Source of the DNA: an uncultured Rhizobiaceae bacterium | GTDB taxonomy: Bacteria > Pseudomonadota > Alphaproteobacteria > Rhizobiales > Rhizobiaceae | Direction of reading: 5' to 3' | NCBI GenBank assembly: GCA_951813045.1 | Contig: CATOTF010000002.1 | Location: 496,001-560,000 of the forward strand | Length of the DNA stretch: 64,000 bases | In this document: one piece after another, positions 3,898 through 24,433 of the stretch | Layout: each line of letters starts with the position of its first letter | Numbering within the stretch: the stretch's first letter is position 1 | Position numbers and translations under genes: made by a program | Notes under the pieces: generated by a model | The model's database searches: none | Told to the model about the DNA's origin: nothing | What the model saw: only the letters and a program-made list of their open reading frames with translations

Positions 3898-5990
3898 GAA
3901 TTATCCTTGTCCCAATCACCAAAACTCCTGCTGTCTTCCGCCAAAGACATCAGCAGGTCGGAGGGGTTCCAATGGGCACCGCCGGCACCATCGCCATATT
4001 CGCTCAGTTTTTCGGCGATTTTTTTCAGGCCCACGTTATCTGCATAATGCATCGGCCCGCCACGCCAGCGCGGATAACCGTATCCATGGTTGTAGACCAC
4101 ATCAATGTCGCTTGCCCGGCTTGCTACACCTTCTGCCAGCGCATGTGCCCCTTCGTTGGCCAGCGCATACATGGTGCGTTCTACGATCTCTTCGTCCGAG
4201 ATTGTGCGCGTGTTGATGCCGAACTCGGCACGAACCTCCTCGACGATACGCGTGGCTTCGGGGTTTTCGGATCGCGCGCGTGTTGCCTTGTCGTAGATAT
4301 AGAAACCGGAACCGGATTTCTGCCCCAGATGGCCCGCTTCGACCAGCCTGTCGGCTGCAAGATAAACACGGGCTTCGTGTTCGTCGAGATTTTGGTCCTT
4401 GCGGGATTTATAGCCGATATCGAGCCCCGCCAGGTCGCTGACGGCGATGGGGCCCATGGCCCAGCCGAAGTTGGTGAGCGCGTTATCGATCTGTTCGGGG
4501 CTCGCCCCTTCCAGCACCATTAAGTTGGCCTGCCTGAAATAGGGGGTCAGCATGCGGTTGCCAATGAACCCATGACCCACACCGGCAATCACCGGCATTT
4601 TGCGAGTCTTTTTAGCGACTGCGAGCGCGGAGAGCAAAACATCGTCAGCCGTTTTGTCGGCGCGAACAATTTCCAGCAAAGGCATGATGTTGGCGGGTGA
4701 GAAATAATGCATGCCCAGAACATCTTCGGGGCGTGACGTCTCCGCGGCAATGGCGTTTACATCGAGATAAGAAGTGTTGGACGCCAATATTGCACCTTTT
4801 TTGGCGACCTTATCAAGCTTGCGAAATACGTCGCGCTTGACCTCCATGGTTTCAAATACGGCTTCTACGATGAGGTCGCAGTCTGCCAGATCCTTATAAT
4901 CTGTCGTGCGCGTCAGCCGTGCCATGCGCTCCGCGACACCTTCGGCGGTGATGCGGCCGGATTTGATGCCCCGTGACCAATTGCTTTCCATGGTTGCAAA
5001 ACCACGGTCGAGCGCTTCATCGGTCATTTCCAGCATGGTGACCGGAAAACCGGCTTCCGCATAGGTCATGGCGATGCCACCGCCCATGGTGCCTGCGCCC
5101 AGCACGCCGATTTTCTTGATCTCGCGCGGGGAGCCGGTAACATCTTTGGGGGGCTTGGCGGCTTGCCGCTCAGCAAAAAAGATGTGGCGTAAAGCTTTGG
5201 ATTGGTCTGAGGCGACCAGTTCCATGAACGTAGCCCGCTCCAGCGCGATGCCGTCTTCAAAGGGTACGTTATAGGCAGCCTTGGCAACCTGCGCTGCCTG
5301 CAGCGGTGCTGCAGCGCCTTTTGCCATTTTGGTGATTGCACCAAACGCCGTTTCAAAAATTGCCTCAACTTCCGGTGTTGTAACCAATTCGACTTTCGAC
5401 AGGCGACGGTCCTCAAACGGTTTGCCCGCCACCTCGGTTGCAAGGGCAATAGCGGCTTCAACGGTATCATCGGAGACCTGATCGACGAGCCCGATCTCCT
5501 GCGCCTTTGTGCCGGAAATCGGTCGCCCTGAACTCACCATATTCACGGCCTCGGTCGGATTGAGCAGCAGACGTGGCAGACGTTGCGTCCCGCCCGCACC
5601 GGGAAGAATACCAAGGTTAACCTCCGGCAGGCCCAATTTGGCTTTTGGGTTTGCAACGCGATAATGGCAACCCAAAGCTGTTTCCAAACCACCGCCCAGC
5701 GTATTGCCCTCCACCGCCGCGACGACGGGAATCGAGCTTGCCTCAATCGTAGCGCATACACTGCCCAGCATCGGCTCAATTGGAGGCTTGCCGAACTCAC
5801 GAATGTCGGCACCGGCAATAAATGTCCCGCCATAACCGGCAAGCACGGCGGCTTTCGCCATGGACTGGGCAACGGCCAGTTCTTCAACAATGCCGCTGCG
5901 CACATGGTGCGACAGGGCGTTGACCGGAGGGTTATTGATCCAGATTACGGCAATGTCGCCGCGCATCTCGGTGGTAACTGATTTCGTCAT
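3894..5990 (-). CDS. Fused enoyl-CoA hydratase / 3-hydroxyacyl-CoA dehydrogenase
   Basis: Multifunctional beta-oxidation protein of 698 residues, in the FadB/FadJ group: it hydrates trans-2-enoyl-CoA, then oxidises the 3-hydroxyacyl-CoA with NAD. The N-terminal crotonase domain (about 1-190) has the oxyanion-hole segment GGGLETALGCHYRVA and both acidic positions in GLPEVNLGILPGAGGTQRLP. A Rossmann domain follows (GVLGAGTMGGGIA, about residue 300), with catalytic HYFSPANIMPLLEIV, then two C-terminal 3HCDH domains. I chose the ATG at 5990 over one 13 codons upstream because AAAGGG lies just before it and it follows the stop of the preceding crotonase gene by one base. It may serve fatty acids or the lower phenylacetate pathway. 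Confidence 0.92.
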   Translation of the reverse strand: MTKSVTTEMRGDIAVIWINNPPVNALSHHVRSGIVEELAVAQSMAKAAVLAGYGGTFIAGADIREFGKPPIEPMLGSVCATIEASSIPVVAAVEGNTLGGGLETALGCHYRVANPKAKLGLPEVNLGILPGAGGTQRLPRLLLNPTEAVNMVSSGRPISGTKAQEIGLVDQVSDDTVEAAIALATEVAGKPFEDRRLSKVELVTTPEVEAIFETAFGAITKMAKGAAAPLQAAQVAKAAYNVPFEDGIALERATFMELVASDQSKALRHIFFAERQAAKPPKDVTGSPREIKKIGVLGAGTMGGGIAMTYAEAGFPVTMLEMTDEALDRGFATMESNWSRGIKSGRITAEGVAERMARLTRTTDYKDLADCDLIVEAVFETMEVKRDVFRKLDKVAKKGAILASNTSYLDVNAIAAETSRPEDVLGMHYFSPANIMPLLEIVRADKTADDVLLSALAVAKKTRKMPVIAGVGHGFIGNRMLTPYFRQANLMVLEGASPEQIDNALTNFGWAMGPIAVSDLAGLDIGYKSRKDQNLDEHEARVYLAADRLVEAGHLGQKSGSGFYIYDKATRARSENPEATRIVEEVRAEFGINTRTISDEEIVERTMYALANEGAHALAEGVASRASDIDVVYNHGYGYPRWRGGPMHYADNVGLKKIAEKLSEYGDGAGGAHWNPSDLLMSLAEDSRSFGDWDKDNS

Positions 5991-5991
5991 A

Positions 5992-6786
5992 TTAACGCCC
6001 TTTAAAATTGGGTTTGCGTTTTTCAACAAATGCTTTGGCCGCTTCGATATGATCGTCTGTTCTGAATGACAACATCATGTGCAACGCTTCCTGATCCAGC
6101 GCCTGGGCAAGTGTGCCCTGTTCAGCGAGGTTCATATTTTTTTTCATGTATCCAAGGGCAACCGACGGCCCATTGGCCAGCCTGTCGGCAAGTTCATCAA
6201 CGGATTGGTTGAATTCTTCGTCGCTATAGGCGTGATTGACCACACCCATGGCTTCCGCCTCGCGCCCATCAATAATTTTGGCGGTATAATAAAGCTCGCG
6301 CGCTTTTGCGGTCCCGACAATCTTCGAAAGAAACCACGATCCGCCAAAATCCCCCGACCCGCCGACATTGGCGAATGCGGTCGTCATTTTGGCAGCTTCC
6401 TTGGCAATCCGCAGGTCGCAGGCCATGGCGAGGGAAAAACCTGCACCGGCGCAGGCGCCATTGATGGCTGCGATTGCTGGTTTTGGCATCTCATGGAGTA
6501 GACGCGCAGATTCCATAATGCGTCGCACAAATGCGGCATCTTCTTCCACCGTGTTTGAGAAACCGTTTTTGGCCCGATCCACCATGCTTTTGACATCACC
6601 ACCGGCGCAAAAGGCGGGGTCAGCACCCGTGAGCACAACACATCCCACATCCGGGTCGTTTTGCGCGTCGTGTAACAGATCAACCAGACCAAGCCACATG
6701 TCCCGCGACATGGCATTGCGCGCGTCGGGGCGATTGAGAGTAATCGTCGTGACGCGCGATGCCGTCTTTACAAGAAGTTCGCTCAT
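5992..6786 (-). CDS. Enoyl-CoA hydratase/isomerase family protein (PaaG-like active site)
   Basis: Crotonase-fold protein of 264 residues. CAGGDVKSM and GACAGAGFSLAMACD form the oxyanion hole. Instead of the Gly-Leu-Pro-Glu typical of hydratases, the region reads GGSGDFGGSWFLSKIVG. Its Asp-x-Gly-Gly-x-Trp resembles the catalytic Asp region of PaaG, an isomerase of phenylacetate degradation. Which reaction it carries out is therefore open: 2-enoyl-CoA isomerisation rather than simple hydration is plausible. The ATG at 6786 follows the thiolase stop by 10 bp; upstream in-frame starts would overlap the thiolase gene. Second gene of the operon. Confidence 0.85.
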   Translation of the reverse strand: MSELLVKTASRVTTITLNRPDARNAMSRDMWLGLVDLLHDAQNDPDVGCVVLTGADPAFCAGGDVKSMVDRAKNGFSNTVEEDAAFVRRIMESARLLHEMPKPAIAAINGACAGAGFSLAMACDLRIAKEAAKMTTAFANVGGSGDFGGSWFLSKIVGTAKARELYYTAKIIDGREAEAMGVVNHAYSDEEFNQSVDELADRLANGPSVALGYMKKNMNLAEQGTLAQALDQEALHMMLSFRTDDHIEAAKAFVEKRKPNFKGR

Positions 6787-6796
6787 GGGGCTTTTA

Positions 6797-7975
6797 TCAA
6801 TAGACCTCAAACAGGCCAGCAGCGCCCTGACCACCACCAACGCACATGGTGCAGACAACGTATTTTGCACCCCGGCGTTTGCCCTCGATCAAAGCGTGAC
6901 CGACCATGCGTGCGCCGCTCATGCCATAAGGGTGGCCAATGGAAATGGCGCCGCCGTTCACATTGAGAATTTCGTCAGGAATGCCCAATTCATCGCGGCA
7001 ATGCATGACCTGAACGGCAAAAGCCTCGTTTAGTTCCCAAAGGTCGATATCTTCCATTTTCAAGCCGTTACGTTCCAGCAGTTTTGGAACGGCGTATACG
7101 GGCCCAATGCCCATCTCATCTGGTTCCAGCCCTGCAACGGCGACGCCGCGATAAGCACCAAGCGGGTTGAGCCCCCGTTTTTCGGCGTCCTTGGCTTCCA
7201 TCACAACGGCTGCTGATGCGCCATCGGAGAGTTGGGACGCATTACCCGCCGTAATGGTTTTATCCGGACCAAGCACCGGATTAAGACCGTTCAAACCATC
7301 AAGGGTCGTTGAAGGTCGGTTACCCTCGTCTTTATCCAGTGAAACATCATGTTCGGATTTTTCTTTCGTTTCCTTGTTCACCATCACCATTGTGGAGGGC
7401 AGGGGAACGATCTCATCGTCGAATTTTCCGGCCTCTTGCGCCGCTGCCGTGCGCATTTGCGATTGCAGCCCGTATTCGTCCATTTTTTCCCGTGATATGC
7501 CATAGCGGTCGGCGACAACTTCGGCGGTTTCCAGCATCGACATGTAGACGTGGGGGTGCATGGCAACGAGGGATTTATCGGCCCCAACCCGCATTTCTGG
7601 TGTTTGTACCATGGAGATGCTTTCAACACCGCCGCCAACACATACGGGCATGTGATCGTCGATCACCTGTTTAGCGGCTGTGGCGATGGCCATCATGCCC
7701 GAGGCGCATTGGCGGTCCAGCGACATGCCGGCAACGGAAACGGGCAGGCCGGCACGCAATGCTGCCTGACGACCGATATTGCCCCCCTGCACGCCCTGTT
7801 GCATCGCCGCTCCCATGATGACGTCATCAACTTCCGCCGGATCAATCCGCGCGCGGGCAACAGCATGTTCAATGGCGTGACCCGCAAGCGTGGGGGACGG
7901 GGTGTTGTTAAACGAACCGCGATAGGCCTTGCCAATCGGGGTGCGCGCCGTGGAGACAATGACAGCTTCGCGCAT
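6797..7975 (-). CDS. Acetyl-CoA C-acyltransferase (thiolase)
   Basis: Thiolase of 392 residues, close to the usual length, cleaving 3-ketoacyl-CoA to acetyl-CoA and a shortened acyl-CoA. The nucleophilic Cys lies in [12 protein letters not shown] (about residue 89). The His motif is [17 protein letters not shown] and the second Cys lies in [16 protein letters not shown] replaces the more frequent HPLG/HPFG. It is the first gene of the operon thiolase-crotonase-hydratase/dehydrogenase-SDR. A perfect 9+2+9 palindrome lies 34-53 bp upstream of its start, suggesting control by a TetR-type acyl-CoA-responsive repressor that is not encoded in the window. Confidence 0.92.
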
Positions 7976-21037: not shown

Positions 21038-21045
21038 AAACTTTA
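21038..21045 (+). repeat. Target-site duplication, left copy
   Basis: AAACTTTA, repeated exactly at 24426-24433 outside the other end. Confidence 0.85.
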
Positions 21046-21069
21046 GGGACCTATATACGTGTGTGACCC
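21046..21069 (+). repeat. Left terminal inverted repeat of the IS1595-type transposon
   Basis: 24 bp, 22 of them matching the complement of 24402-24425. The 240-residue gene stops only 3 bp inside it. Confidence 0.88.
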
Positions 21070-21072
21070 AAG

Positions 21073-21795
21073 TCAGAATGCGGCATTAGGTGGTTCGGCT
21101 ATCTGACTCCACTGTTGTGCGATTGTTTCGCAAGCAGCTTCGGCATTCTGAAACCGACTTGTGGAATCGGTCGGGCCAAAATGAGATACGCCGCTCCAAG
21201 CATCGATTGTCAGGCAGATTTTTGGTTCCGGTTCTTGCTCGGCATCGTTGTTGGTTGCTCTCAAATAACCAAGCATTATGGCGGATTGCCACAGCCCGGT
21301 TTCCTCTGGTAGCGGCTTGTTTTTCGAATAACGGACGGACGCGCCGCCGACGCGGACTTTGTTGGTCTTTGTGACACGTAAGGTTCGAAACGAAACGTCT
21401 GGTTTGAGCAGAACACCACCTATGGAGATTTTTGCAGTTGGCCCAACATCCAGGATATCTGCTTTTGGTAGTTTGATGCCTTCGTGCTTCTTGACGAAGC
21501 GCATGATGTAGTCGGCGTTGGAGTCCAATTCGTCTCGTCTGAAGTCATCGTCGGCCATCATCGCATAGAGCTTGTCGGCGGTTGAAACCAAGTCCTCTAT
21601 GTCGCCGCCTTGCCGATAATACTTCGAAATTGCCAGCCGAGCTTCCTTGTGCTGCATCAGTCGTGCAAGCGCAGGATAGCGACAATTTTTGACGATCCTA
21701 CGCCTTGCACGGTCGGTGCCAGCCATATAGTCAGCCAAATATCGGAATGTGATTTCCGGTTTTTTAACGTTGCGATGCGTCTTCTTTGGCTGCAT
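21073..21795 (-). CDS. Transposon passenger protein, unknown function (240 aa)
   Basis: I do not recognise this family. The protein is soluble with a basic N-terminus (MQPKKTHRNVKKPEITFRYL), a helical region to about residue 110 and a probable beta-rich part (VGGASVRYSKNKPLPEETGLWQSAIMLGYLRA, then KICLTIDAWSGVSHFG). The second half, with an acidic ICLTIDAWSG strand after a Trp-Gln helix, could be a nuclease-like or regulatory fold, but that is speculation. GGAAAT precedes the ATG. It is divergent from the 75-residue gene with only 25 bp between starts, and its stop almost touches the left transposon end. Confidence 0.75.
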   Translation of the reverse strand: MQPKKTHRNVKKPEITFRYLADYMAGTDRARRRIVKNCRYPALARLMQHKEARLAISKYYRQGGDIEDLVSTADKLYAMMADDDFRRDELDSNADYIMRFVKKHEGIKLPKADILDVGPTAKISIGGVLLKPDVSFRTLRVTKTNKVRVGGASVRYSKNKPLPEETGLWQSAIMLGYLRATNNDAEQEPEPKICLTIDAWSGVSHFGPTDSTSRFQNAEAACETIAQQWSQIAEPPNAAF

Positions 21796-21820
21796 GATTC
21801 GATTTCCATGGGAGCGAACA

Positions 21821-22048
21821 ATGGACGAATACTACTTCACGGTGCCTGTAGATGAAAGTAAGACACTGTGTCTTGCGCCGTTGACCAGCAGACGTATTAA
21901 GAATGCAGATATAGAACCGGTAGATACAGGCGGTCATTTCCTCTATGAACAGGAGGGTACTGGCGAAAATGCTTCGATACGGATTTTGGCGCATGTCGCG
22001 TCAGAGGAAAGCCTTTTTCAACTGCGCGATATGTTCAAAATGGTTTAA
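21821..22048 (+). CDS. Small transposon passenger protein, unknown function (75 aa)
   Basis: Small acidic protein starting MDEYYFTVPVDESKTLCLAP. The ATG at 21821 has GGAG six bases upstream; a start 72 bp earlier would run into the divergent gene. No membrane segment or known motif is seen. It overlaps the DUF3223 gene tail-to-tail by 4 bp (TTAA) and starts 25 bp from the divergent 240-residue gene. This packing is typical of compact mobile cargo. It could be an antitoxin-like or regulatory partner, but nothing in the sequence proves it. Confidence 0.7.
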   Translation: MDEYYFTVPVDESKTLCLAPLTSRRIKNADIEPVDTGGHFLYEQEGTGENASIRILAHVASEESLFQLRDMFKMV

Positions 22049-22356
22049 TCGTAAGGCTTTGGCTCCAAGCAATGCTTGAAAGAGAAATTGTCACGACTAC
22101 CATCCGTCCTGACAAGCCAGAAACAACGACCGGGGTAATCCGTTGGAGCCCCTACTTCAAAATGGGCAATCCCAACGCCAACTTTTTCGATTTTGTCGTC
22201 GTGCCGTTCCAGTACAGCTAACAAATCTGGCGTGTCTTGATCCGATATGGTGGCACCTATCGAATATCGATGTAGCATCTGTTGAAAGAATTTCATGGCA
22301 TCCCCCGCCTTATCGAAAGTGCGTGTCCTAAGAACTATCTGACGCGCTTTGGCCAC
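22045..22356 (-). CDS. DUF3223 (DeCL-like) domain protein, transposon passenger
   Basis: Protein of 103 residues covering one DUF3223 domain. The pattern matches: FDKAGDAMKFFQQMLHRYSIG, then DLLAVLERHDDKIEKVGVGIAHFEV, and the signature GRCFWLVRTDGSRDNFSFKHCL, i.e. Arg-Cys-Phe...Arg-x-Asp-Gly...Phe-Ser-Phe-x-x-Cys. The same domain is found in plant DCL rRNA-processing proteins and in the C-terminal tail of the plant Pol IV/V largest subunits; its bacterial role is unknown. It starts 22 bp after the P63C/BstA-like gene, so the order transposase, P63C-like, DUF3223 forms one operon. Confidence 0.8.
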   Translation of the reverse strand: MAKARQIVLRTRTFDKAGDAMKFFQQMLHRYSIGATISDQDTPDLLAVLERHDDKIEKVGVGIAHFEVGAPTDYPGRCFWLVRTDGSRDNFSFKHCLEPKPYD

Positions 22357-22378
22357 AACGCTACTCCTTCCACTTTGT

Positions 22379-23428
22379 CTAAGGGCTAATCAATTTCTGC
22401 TCGACAGCATCAATGGCAAGTTGCGCCACAGAGGGCGGTAAGTCGCCTTTATTCACCTTGCCATCTAGGTATTTTGCAAATTTGCCGTCCTCTATGTAAA
22501 TATCTTGAAGCCACTGCCTGTAATCACCTAATGCAGACAATGGGTAGCACCATGCCTCTTGTGGATTGGAGTTGGCTTGTGGGTGTGACGCCGGATACCT
22601 ATGTGGATATTTCATTCTCGCGCCGTGCTTGGCTGCAAGATTGTTGTCATCCCAATACCGCCCCCAATGCTGGCCGATTGAAATATCTACAACGGTCTTT
22701 TCGCCAATTTCAGCCCCTGCCTGTATCATCTCGTAGATGATAGTGTGCGCTTCATTGAATACCGAAAAGTAGCCACGTGGAGCAGACTGGTGATTAAGTT
22801 CAATTCGCTCATGCCACTTAGCGAAAACGTCTTTGTAGCGGCCTGTGAGATCGTAACCTAGCTGACTATAAATCATCTCGCGCAGTTTGGAGCCTGCGAG
22901 AAGGCGGAAGTTATCTCTGGCTTGAGGTTGGCAATTAGCGCCAGCGTCGAAGGCGTAATACTCAAGAACCGCCAAACAAATTTCGGCAGGATAGCAGTAA
23001 TGCACCACACCCTTGTACATGATTTCGAAGTGAGCCGTTTTGGCGGTGAATCCGGCCTTTGCCAAAACCCCTTTGATAGATTCTATGCGCGGTTTTGGCT
23101 GCTCATCATTCCATTGGGCGCTAATTGTACCGATATGAGCGTTTTGAACCCCGCATAACGCAGCCAAACCACGTTGATTGAGGTAGGGCGTCCCATCTGA
23201 CAGGACCCCCATCCCGATGCCGCCTATATCGCGCTCGACTTCAATCCCAAAATCTAACTCGCCTTGTGGGGTGATTTCCTTTGAGCCTGATTTTTGGCTT
23301 AAACTACTGATTCTACTGGCGTTAGAGGTGATTTCCTTGGGGTCTGTCTGTGCGAATTTATTCATCGCCTCATCAAAACTCATATCTAGTTTGAGGGGTG
23401 GCTCGTACTTTTTCGACCTATCATTCAT
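22379..23428 (-). CDS. Phage-type P63C/BstA-like protein, transposon passenger
   Basis: Protein of 349 residues. A polar disordered N-terminus (1-60) leads to a phage-antirepressor-like region: GMGVLSDGTPYLNQRGLAALCG (about 72-94), then VVHYCYPAEICLAVLEYY and FRLLAGSKLREMIYSQLGYD. The C-terminal half has KWHERIELNHQSAPRGYFSVFNEA, VVDISIGQHWGRYW and YPHRYPASHPQANSNPQEAWCYPLSAL. This layout resembles phage P63C-domain proteins, and I suspect a link to BstA-type abortive-infection proteins, but I cannot confirm either without a profile search. Its ATG overlaps the transposase stop (ATGA), so the two are made together. Confidence 0.7.
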   Translation of the reverse strand: MNDRSKKYEPPLKLDMSFDEAMNKFAQTDPKEITSNASRISSLSQKSGSKEITPQGELDFGIEVERDIGGIGMGVLSDGTPYLNQRGLAALCGVQNAHIGTISAQWNDEQPKPRIESIKGVLAKAGFTAKTAHFEIMYKGVVHYCYPAEICLAVLEYYAFDAGANCQPQARDNFRLLAGSKLREMIYSQLGYDLTGRYKDVFAKWHERIELNHQSAPRGYFSVFNEAHTIIYEMIQAGAEIGEKTVVDISIGQHWGRYWDDNNLAAKHGARMKYPHRYPASHPQANSNPQEAWCYPLSALGDYRQWLQDIYIEDGKFAKYLDGKVNKGDLPPSVAQLAIDAVEQKLISP

Positions 23429-24345
23429 GCGATCAATTCCTTGTATGTGAGCCGACCAGAGATGCTTTCCAGTAGCAGATTGACACGCTGACCTTCGCCA
23501 GATTCGCGGCGATTATAACGCCATGTCATTTCACTTAGGTAGCGATGAAGGTGTTTGCTCGAAACCCAATGGTGAATGCCGTAAATCTGGCGCTTGATAT
23601 GTGACCATGCCCCCTCAATTGAGTTGGTGTGGTAATAGTTTCCAGTGTGAGCGTACTCGCCAGCAGAGTGGTTCACAGTTTGATGGTGAAAATGCTTCGA
23701 CAGTCCTTTGTAACCCGCATATTCGTCAGTGATAACAGTCGACCAAGGTTCTACATGAGCCTTCACCACCTTGGCGACACCACGCAACGTGGGGATATGG
23801 AAGGCACGGAACTCGCCTGTGCGCTCCAATGCGCCCCAAACAACATCCTTGCCTACTGGACCGCGACCAGCTTTCAAACGCTTGTTGGCGTGCTTGTTCT
23901 TTTCTTTGCCGCCCATAAACGTCTCATCGACCTCTACAGGCGATTTCAGCTTGCGATTGAATGAAGGTGTGCGGGAAGCGTGGCGCAAGCGGTGGAGCAT
24001 GAACCAAGCCGTTTTCTGAGTGACTTTGATATCCTTGGCGAGTGTCGTGCTAGCAACGCCCTTTTTGTGAGAAGTGATAAGCCAGATTGCCATGAACCAT
24101 TTGCGAAGCGGGATTTTGCTTTCTGCAAAGATAGTGCCTACCTTGATTGAAAAGCGCTTCCGGCAATCGCTGCATTTGTGGTTCTTACGGTCTTTGAAGT
24201 GCATAACGCGGGTTGAACCACAATGTGGGCAATGAGCGGTCTCATTGTCGTTGCCCCAACGGATAGCTCGTAGGTGGTCAATCGCAGACTGCTCGTCTGG
24301 AAAGGCTTCCATCATCTCAAAGAGGCTATCAAACTGCATTTTCAT
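23425..24345 (-). CDS. ISXO2-like transposase (IS1595 family)
   Basis: DDE transposase of 306 residues. An N-terminal zinc ribbon CPHCGSTRVMHFKDRKNHKC...C (about 39-60) is followed by SIKVGTIFAESKIPLRKWFMAIWL. The catalytic domain has VEVDETFMGGKEKNKH (first Asp), VITDEYAGYKGLSKHFHH (second Asp) and HTNSIEGAWSHIKRQIYGIHHWVSSKHLHRYLSE (Asn/Glu region). The ATG is next to a hairpin that holds its ribosome site in the loop. It is intact and coupled to the passenger gene downstream. Confidence 0.93.
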   Translation of the reverse strand: MKMQFDSLFEMMEAFPDEQSAIDHLRAIRWGNDNETAHCPHCGSTRVMHFKDRKNHKCSDCRKRFSIKVGTIFAESKIPLRKWFMAIWLITSHKKGVASTTLAKDIKVTQKTAWFMLHRLRHASRTPSFNRKLKSPVEVDETFMGGKEKNKHANKRLKAGRGPVGKDVVWGALERTGEFRAFHIPTLRGVAKVVKAHVEPWSTVITDEYAGYKGLSKHFHHQTVNHSAGEYAHTGNYYHTNSIEGAWSHIKRQIYGIHHWVSSKHLHRYLSEMTWRYNRRESGEGQRVNLLLESISGRLTYKELIA

Positions 24346-24369
24346 CGGTACGGCTCCTGTCCTGTACCG
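24346..24369 (-). promoter_or_regulatory. Hairpin enclosing the transposase ribosome-binding site
   Basis: On the minus strand, CGGTAC and GTACCG pair around a 12-nt loop containing GGAG, and the stem ends directly at the transposase ATG. It could limit transposase translation, or act as a DNA operator. Confidence 0.5.
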
Positions 24370-24401
24370 ATAATTTAGGTGTTTACGGGACCCTTGTCAA
24401 T

Positions 24402-24425
24402 GGGTTACACACGTATATAAGTCCC
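24402..24425 (-). repeat. Right terminal inverted repeat of the IS1595-type transposon
   Basis: 24 bp complementary to 21046-21069 with two mismatches, followed by the target duplication at 24426-24433. Confidence 0.88.
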
Positions 24426-24433
24426 AAACTTTA
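24426..24433 (+). repeat. Target-site duplication, right copy
   Basis: AAACTTTA, identical to 21038-21045. Confidence 0.85.

Follow-up and report, generated by a model that had tools for sequence, protein, structure and literature searches.

What kind of mobile element occupies positions 21046-24425 of the window (the whole 64,000-nucleotide stretch of an uncultured Rhizobiaceae contig that we analyzed), and do the genes that it carries besides its transposase form a single immunity system? The element is a complete, passenger-carrying transposon of a known family, IS1595, whose members sometimes carry passenger genes. Its inverted ends measure 25 bp with two mismatches (GGGACCTATATACGTGTGTGACCCA at 21046-21070 on the plus strand, distal to the transposase, and GGGACTTATATACGTGTGTAACCCA, given as the reverse complement, at 24401-24425 on the minus strand, adjoining it), and a perfect 8-bp target-site duplication, AAACTTTA, flanks them at 21038-21045 and 24426-24433. 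A first-pass annotation made from the sequence alone had recognized the duplication and the two mismatches exactly, with an end length of 24 bp that we correct here. The intact ISXO2-like transposase that it called (306 amino acids [aa], 23425-24345, minus strand) matches the profiles DDE_Tnp_IS1595 (PF12762, 4e-37), zinc ribbon (PF12760, 5e-12) and NF033547 (5e-59), such that the features by which the family is recognized, an ISXO2-like DDE transposase with a zinc ribbon, inverted ends and an 8-bp duplication, are all present. The element is single-copy: with up to 3 mismatches allowed, its own genome contains a single pair of such ends, along with two further, distant IS1595 transposases (41% and 28% identity, the latter interrupted by a stop codon). 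Inward from the transposase lie a 349-aa open reading frame (ORF) and a DUF3223 gene, all three on the minus strand, and then a divergent pair, orf75 (plus) and orf240 (minus).

The 349-aa ORF (22379-23428, minus strand) is coupled to the transposase, since it begins within the transposase stop codon (ATGA, a 4-bp overlap, as first annotated). It had been labeled P63C/BstA-like, and only the second half of that label holds: the protein matches the PADLOC profile of BstA at 5.6e-117 (388 bits, profile positions 4-289 of 292, residues 53-344, 22397-23272 on the minus strand) and PHROG 6287 at 2e-84, whereas a search of Pfam, P63C included, gave no match at E up to 0.1, and we rejected P63C as the identity of this gene. 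The protein shares 38% identity with BstA of phage BTP1 and aligns with it through the conserved blocks of the family, which identifies it by homology as an intact, full-length phage-type abortive-infection protein; the proposal that phage-type cargo is made together with the transposase is thus borne out by the coupled BstA. Pfam gave no match to the KilA-N-like N-terminal domain of BstA, a call made with remote-homology tools in the passages of the published BstA study that we draw on throughout (PMC8585504), and a search of solved structures by BstA sequence returned 0 matches. A structure of the 349-aa protein predicted from a 59-row alignment has a mean predicted local distance difference test score (pLDDT) of 85, with the BstA part confident. 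Residues 1-30 (23339-23428, minus strand), which we call the N-module, fall outside BstA and match instead a stand-alone ORF of 60-63 aa that occupies the same position in sister elements, two from the same genus (L055, L056) and one from the same order (L057). In the predicted model the first 60 residues consist of one helix (residues 18-26, FDEAMNKFA) and a low-confidence linker, residues 30-40 having a pLDDT below 50.

We compared this junction across loci encoding relatives of the window transposase (the best 80 of at least 518 genome loci, the best 80 of 516 viral-contig loci, and 7 others), of which 42 distinct ones with a transposase identity of at least 50% are hereafter called close. 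A perfect 8-bp duplication at the best-scoring ends was found in 22 of these 42, the window counted and matching duplications themselves raising the score. The coupled ORF starts at -4 relative to the transposase stop in 38 of the close loci, at -8 in one and at -11 in one, as picked by a script that favors -4 and -1 starts where several exist; by comparison, an ORF of at least 35 aa starts at -4 for 190 of the 906 long open frames of the same loci, transposases included. Among 123 more distant loci, the start was at -4 in 45 and at -8 in 31. All 39 usable close coupled ORFs, the window included, share the N-module in one alignment, from which L111 and L078 (cut by contig ends) and L162 (partial transposase match) were left out. 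Its consensus is MTxxxKxEPPxxLDMxFxEALxRFxxTDPxE, in which one residue besides the initial Met is invariant and three exceed 90%. The comparison of these loci thus shows that the coupled gene in most cases shares an ATGA with the transposase stop, and that it opens with a conserved N-module of about 30 residues.

The N-module belongs to the element and, judged from substitution patterns, is under purifying selection, because in seven close pairs the proportion of nonsynonymous differences (pN, 0.10-0.17) lies well below that of synonymous ones (pS, 0.51-0.87). Its distances track those of the transposase weakly (Mantel r 0.22) but more than chance would give, as 1 of 2000 permutations reached that value. 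A hidden Markov model (HMM) of the module gave two confident matches in 385 alphaproteobacterial genomes, each next to a transposase of this kind, and with so few matches a general bacterial motif was rejected; three weak matches in the same genomes had no transposase within the flanks examined. More distant elements often show an opening that is similar by eye (IIEPID..FD.V) at -8 or -4. Separately, at L206, L216, L223, L228, L230, L231 and other viral-contig loci, distant IS1595 transposases are followed at -4 by a Lys/Arg-rich ORF of 41-55 aa (ELD.IAD.VL.Y.PK.K), perhaps the counterpart of the N-module in distant elements.

What follows the module differs between elements: it stands alone or is fused to Bro-N (L075, L058 and L145, the last just below the identity cut-off), RhuM (L079, L155, L157), P63C (L118), a D12 methyltransferase (L159) or, in the window, BstA. 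Many elements have the module alone, 22 of the 38 ORFs at -4 being shorter than 100 aa. In a wider set of 87 coupled ORFs (at least 100 aa, starting between -33 and +60 of the stop and uncut by contig ends), Pfam recognizes P63C in 26, N6/N4 methylases in 10, RhuM and Bro-N in 9 each, D12 methylases and KilA-N in 6 each and C5 methylases in 4, while the PADLOC candidate family PDC-S05 matches 15. Eight passenger classes, assigned from blastp, Pfam and, for some rows, by eye, take 16 changes when mapped onto the transposase tree, compared with 17.4 on average after shuffling; a value as low arose in 26 of 200 shufflings, with a bootstrap that had not settled. In this comparison the part behind the N-module has been exchanged repeatedly and tracks the transposase much less than the module does. 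In Methylocystis, the transposases of L014, L083 and L086 sit on very short branches and yet have different ORFs directly past the stop, a pattern that suggests passengers swapped at that junction. Close elements also carry SocA/Panacea antitoxins (L057, L118), methyltransferases (L094, L155) and an ImmA/IrrE-type peptidase (L075). A passenger family of 268-416 aa recurs in L074, L082, L086, L095 and L122, and its members in L074 and L122, the two scanned, had no Pfam match. The P63C domain itself lies mostly away from IS1595 in a sample of 10 alphaproteobacterial places, 2 of which have such an element within flanks of about 1.5 kb.

We then asked where the BstA passenger came from. A query of the genome contigs with the BstA protein by itself yielded no lead. 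The BstA model matches 5 of the 385 genomes, and an IS1595 transposase adjoins three of these matches (in the own genome, G026 and G189), those in G026 and G189 covering the C-terminal part only. G026 holds four copies of another IS1595 transposase, of equal score and spacing, one at L060 (G026:C1:442500-450500) and three elsewhere in that genome. Behind every copy stands a gene that begins, by eye, like KilA-N and has a BstA-like C-terminal part. Among the best 80 of 254 viral-contig BstA loci, one (L282, on the same contig as L192) has an IS1595 transposase within 3 kb. The nearest viral BstAs, L254-L266 (60-72% identity), lack the N-module by eye, and the homology of most of them to the window protein begins near residue 31. 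A 78-row BstA tree places the window copy within a clade of 13 rows (support 100/98) in which it alone is borne on an insertion sequence (IS), and the four IS-borne rows stand in four places, as supported branches require, L117 being a long branch. L192 and L117 are complete elements with ends and 8-bp duplications; element ends were looked for and not found at L124, L185 and L188. Because the IS-borne rows are scattered in the tree and the window is nested among prophage BstAs, IS1595 elements most likely picked up phage bstA more than once, although for L192 and L124 the transfer may have run in either direction. Since the window BstA sits in an IS1595 element it has no prophage association, which is not a defining requirement of the family: 79% of 72 published BstA homologues are prophage-associated and 21% prophage-independent (PMC8585504).

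One such element has reached a phage. The L192 element (4893-7049 of that locus) comprises a transposase, a BstA with an IIEPID-type opening and an aba-like repeat (see below) between duplicated GTACGTAA, and is flanked by genes for a terminase large subunit (2e-93), an HNH endonuclease, a Holliday junction resolvase, a DNA methyltransferase and a primase-helicase-like protein. Because it lies among these phage-type genes, an IS1595 element has here carried bstA and its repeat into a phage genome.

In BTP1, bstA comes with a cognate immunity element, aba, of 63 bp, which extends across the start codon and depends on the CCCGCC repeats at its ends; its immunity was concluded to be DNA-based and cognate, the latter having been tested for three bstA loci (PMC8585504). 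In the window, a repeat scan revealed a putative aba element (23270-23338, minus strand) bounded by a 12-bp direct repeat, AAGGAAATCACC, with copies at 23327-23338 and 23270-23281. On the minus strand the copies start at 23338 and 23281, hence 57 bp apart from start to start and inside the coding sequence, where the stretch encodes the low-confidence flexible linker of the fused protein in the predicted model. The DNA similarity of the window to 11 near phage bstA genes starts at the first copy. The CCCGCC repeats of BTP1 begin 56 bp apart, and it was from these two cases that the spacing was set, the scans of other loci coming afterwards. In BTP1 itself an unrestricted scan finds another repeat, at 46 bp, as the longest, and the 63-bp aba emerges when 56/57 is imposed.

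The same spacing recurs across bstA loci. When the longest repeat at any spacing between 30 and 100 was sought in the 5′ region of 68 distinct loci, 30 repeats reached 8 bp or more, and 25 of these fell at 56 or 57. With near copies weeded out more strictly (16 of the 80 viral loci had first been dropped because the anchor motif was not found in them), 62 of 74 rows were kept. Of these 62 loci, 44 carry at 56/57 bp a repeat no shorter than 6 bp, or 42 of 60 without the window and BTP1, compared with a mean of 3.0 and a maximum of 8 for other neighboring pairs of spacings; two control stretches inside bstA genes showed no 56/57 peak. The repeat sequence varies by clade, and in L266 both copies are altered alike. 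Three of six IS-borne BstA-like genes keep the repeat, those of the window, L124 and L192 (the last seen as L282), and in L124 and L192 the IIEPID-type N-terminal opening precedes the first copy in frame. The window repeat thus matches the anatomy of the BTP1 aba, from which immunity is predicted, and a defence gene seems to have kept its exemption tag, as far as homology and anatomy indicate.

The reading that we favor, with a probability of roughly 0.6, is that this is a modular IS1595 transposon with a fixed plug-in slot, carrying a phage defence together with its cognate exemption tag. The slot is filled here by a full-length phage-type bstA, joined in frame just upstream of the aba-like repeat. 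BstA would be made when the transposase is translated and would halt the replication of incoming phage DNA, as phage BstA does, and DNA bearing the element's own aba-like repeat would be exempt. The host would gain phage defence, and a phage or plasmid hit by the transposon would replicate unhindered, such that the element would be no obstacle to its own vehicles. The N-module, modelled as a short helix attached to a flexible linker, probably serves to dock each passenger onto the transposase or the transposition complex, or alternatively sets its amount or place.

Several observations weigh against this reading. No 56/57 repeat occurs in 18 of the 62 bstA loci. The spacing is 57, a multiple of three, in 31 of the 44 loci that have the repeat, and a repeated peptide could add to the signal; the other 13, however, are at 56 bp, which is impossible for a single-frame peptide repeat, and seven first copies precede an in-frame stop. 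Related bstA loci in these counts are not independent, and the samples consist of the best-scoring 80 of at least 518, of 516 and of 254 loci. Because three IS-borne BstA-like genes lack the repeat (L117, L185 and L188, the last two with an identical ORF), aba is not needed for carriage. In the published work, a single chromosomal aba copy gave no immunity in a test in trans, and the activity tests of BstA were done in Salmonella (PMC8585504). Passenger class, finally, retains some tie to the transposase tree, on which the stand-alone state clusters (8 changes against a shuffled mean of 13.2, 3 of 500 as low), as does a Bro-N/DinD-like class (4 changes against 5.8, 3 of 500 as low), three other classes showing no clustering.

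The slot proteins could instead regulate the transposon: the module would bind the transposase, and whichever DNA-binding domain (KilA-N, Bro-N, P63C, BstA) or methyltransferase has been swapped in would tune the timing or place of movement, for example by tying it to replication. A single module placed before unrelated domains beside the transposase fits this idea, as do the many elements with the module alone and the frequency of DNA methyltransferases in the wider slot set. We nevertheless consider it unlikely, given that BstA is a tested phage-defence protein (PMC8585504), that the aba-like repeat kept in three IS-borne copies would be superfluous for a pure regulator, and that repeated exchange of the C-terminal part would be odd for a dedicated one. 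It is more doubtful still that, outside BTP1, the 56/57-bp repeat is an operator of bstA or an expression feature of its 5′ end and not an immunity element. The repeat does surround the phage-type start in the loci that have it, and its spacing is mostly in frame, but the BTP1 repeats are required for an immunity that is DNA-based (PMC8585504), the sequence differs by clade, as cognate immunity requires, and the window repeat has been kept within coding DNA downstream of the transposase gene, a place in which an operator would have nothing to do. Neutral capture, in which chance recombination past the transposase stop would bring in cargo bound to decay behind a module serving only as translation leader, is very unlikely, since the different coupled ORFs of the Methylocystis transposases on short branches and the length of the BstA-like ORF shared by L185 and L188 (only 149 aa) are outweighed by the low pN/pS of the N-module, the intact, full-length BstA of the window and the narrow set of families in the wider slot (P63C, Bro-N, RhuM, KilA-N and methyltransferases).

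The remaining cargo appears, from homology, to be further material of phage or plasmid type. The DUF3223 gene (DCL family, 103 aa, 22045-22356, minus strand) lies 22 bp past the coupled ORF, as first annotated, and its product matches PF11523 at 2.7e-21 and, at 2.2e-35, a PADLOC model of HamC, a component of type II Hachiman (PMC8565338). The HamC-type models were the only Hachiman models to match, HamA and HamB being absent from the five element proteins scanned, and Hachiman was rejected; DUF3223/DCL genes occur on many plasmids, in 32 of 72,556 plasmid records. DUF3223 was likewise rejected as a regular partner of BstA: PF11523 matched 0 of 80 viral BstA records, where the controls gave no match either, a query of viral contigs yielded no lead, and the gene neighbors BstA elsewhere once and weakly, as a fragment (L309:3956-4120, 38% over 55 aa) shortly past a phage BstA gene and cut by the contig end.

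At the far end, orf75 (75 aa, 21821-22048, plus strand) and orf240 (240 aa, 21073-21795, minus strand) diverge with 25 bp between their starts, and family-profile searches gave no match for either, in line with their initial description as two divergent genes without a known family. Relatives of orf240 at 46-48% identity occur in five viral contigs; another, on a Rhizobium gallicum plasmid, is annotated as two pieces, and a distant one (21%) lies in the IS1595 element of L089, a search of plasmids with the latter yielding no lead. A small divergent gene adjoins the orf240 relatives in L334, L336, L337, L338, L234 and L089, L335 being uninformative because it is cut at the contig end, and it resembles orf75 at E up to 4e-5 in L334, L336, L234 and L089 and by position and eye in L337 and L338. 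Pairs of this type are thus found in prophage-type contigs, one plasmid and one other IS1595 element, and the pair is a candidate defence or toxin-antitoxin pair. In L336 (3737-5607), the gene next to the pair looks TIR-domain-like by eye.

Do the four cargo genes act as one system, as first proposed? The answer is no. The first-pass annotation had itself named, as the observation that would speak against its proposal, close relatives with the same ends and unrelated cargo, and L055 and L056, of the same genus, are exactly that: in L055 the shared ends, flanked by an 8-bp duplication of its own, enclose genes for 168 and 145 aa in place of DUF3223, orf75 and orf240, and L056 has the same ends and no matching duplication. 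In a tblastn comparison with the other loci collected by that stage, DUF3223 and orf240 matched none and orf75 only L089, weakly, where the distant orf240 relative was then recognized. The suggested interference or immunity function therefore survives for the main cargo, BstA, by homology, and falls for the four genes as a unit. Each part appears to have its own history, BstA coming from prophages, orf75/orf240 being a divergent pair and DUF3223 occurring on plasmids.

How does the element compare with what is known? It shares with described IS1595 passenger transposons a transposase with a zinc ribbon, the 8-bp duplication and extra internal genes, and differs from them in its N-module slot with exchangeable phage-type domains. 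Iyer et al. reportedly described in 2002 how phages and DNA viruses shuffle KilA-N, Bro-N, P63C and related domains; several of these domains occur here behind the module or in distant coupled ORFs, whereas the carrier in this case is an insertion element of bacteria, to which the shared N-terminal part belongs. With the BstA-aba pair of BTP1, as described in the published passages (PMC8585504), it has in common a protein of the same family over nearly its whole length and, at the phage-type start, direct repeats with the 56-57-bp spacing of the 63-bp aba. It differs in that bstA of BTP1 lies in a prophage behind the CI repressor, while that of the window lies on a transposon, has an IS1595 module fused to its front and shows coupling to the transposase, with the aba-like element wholly inside the coding sequence, AAGGAAATCACC in place of CCCGCC, and an activity that is predicted. 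In the open literature of PubMed Central (titles and abstract openings), a scope outside which the 2009 description of IS1595 falls, where coupled small ORFs may already be mentioned, we found no BstA on an IS1595 element, no N-module and no general aba spacing rule, and within that literature the module-slot design appears undescribed.

If this is indeed a modular IS1595 transposon bearing phage defence and its exemption tag, it would show how a simple insertion element gathers and shuffles phage-defence and DNA-modifying genes via one slot, and it offers a source for BstA genes outside prophages. The rule of two repeats 56/57 bp apart around the bstA start proposes a candidate aba for 44 of 62 bstA loci at once, making cognate immunity addressable clade by clade. 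A broader version, which we put forward tentatively, is that in a class of IS1595 elements a conserved docking module co-translated with the transposase plugs in interchangeable phage-derived DNA-acting proteins, the BstA versions bringing their own self/non-self mark and so exempting any replicon on which they land, phages included. If true, the transposon would bear an immunity that travels with its own DNA passport, and two clade-specific repeats 56-57 bp apart would define aba across the whole family.

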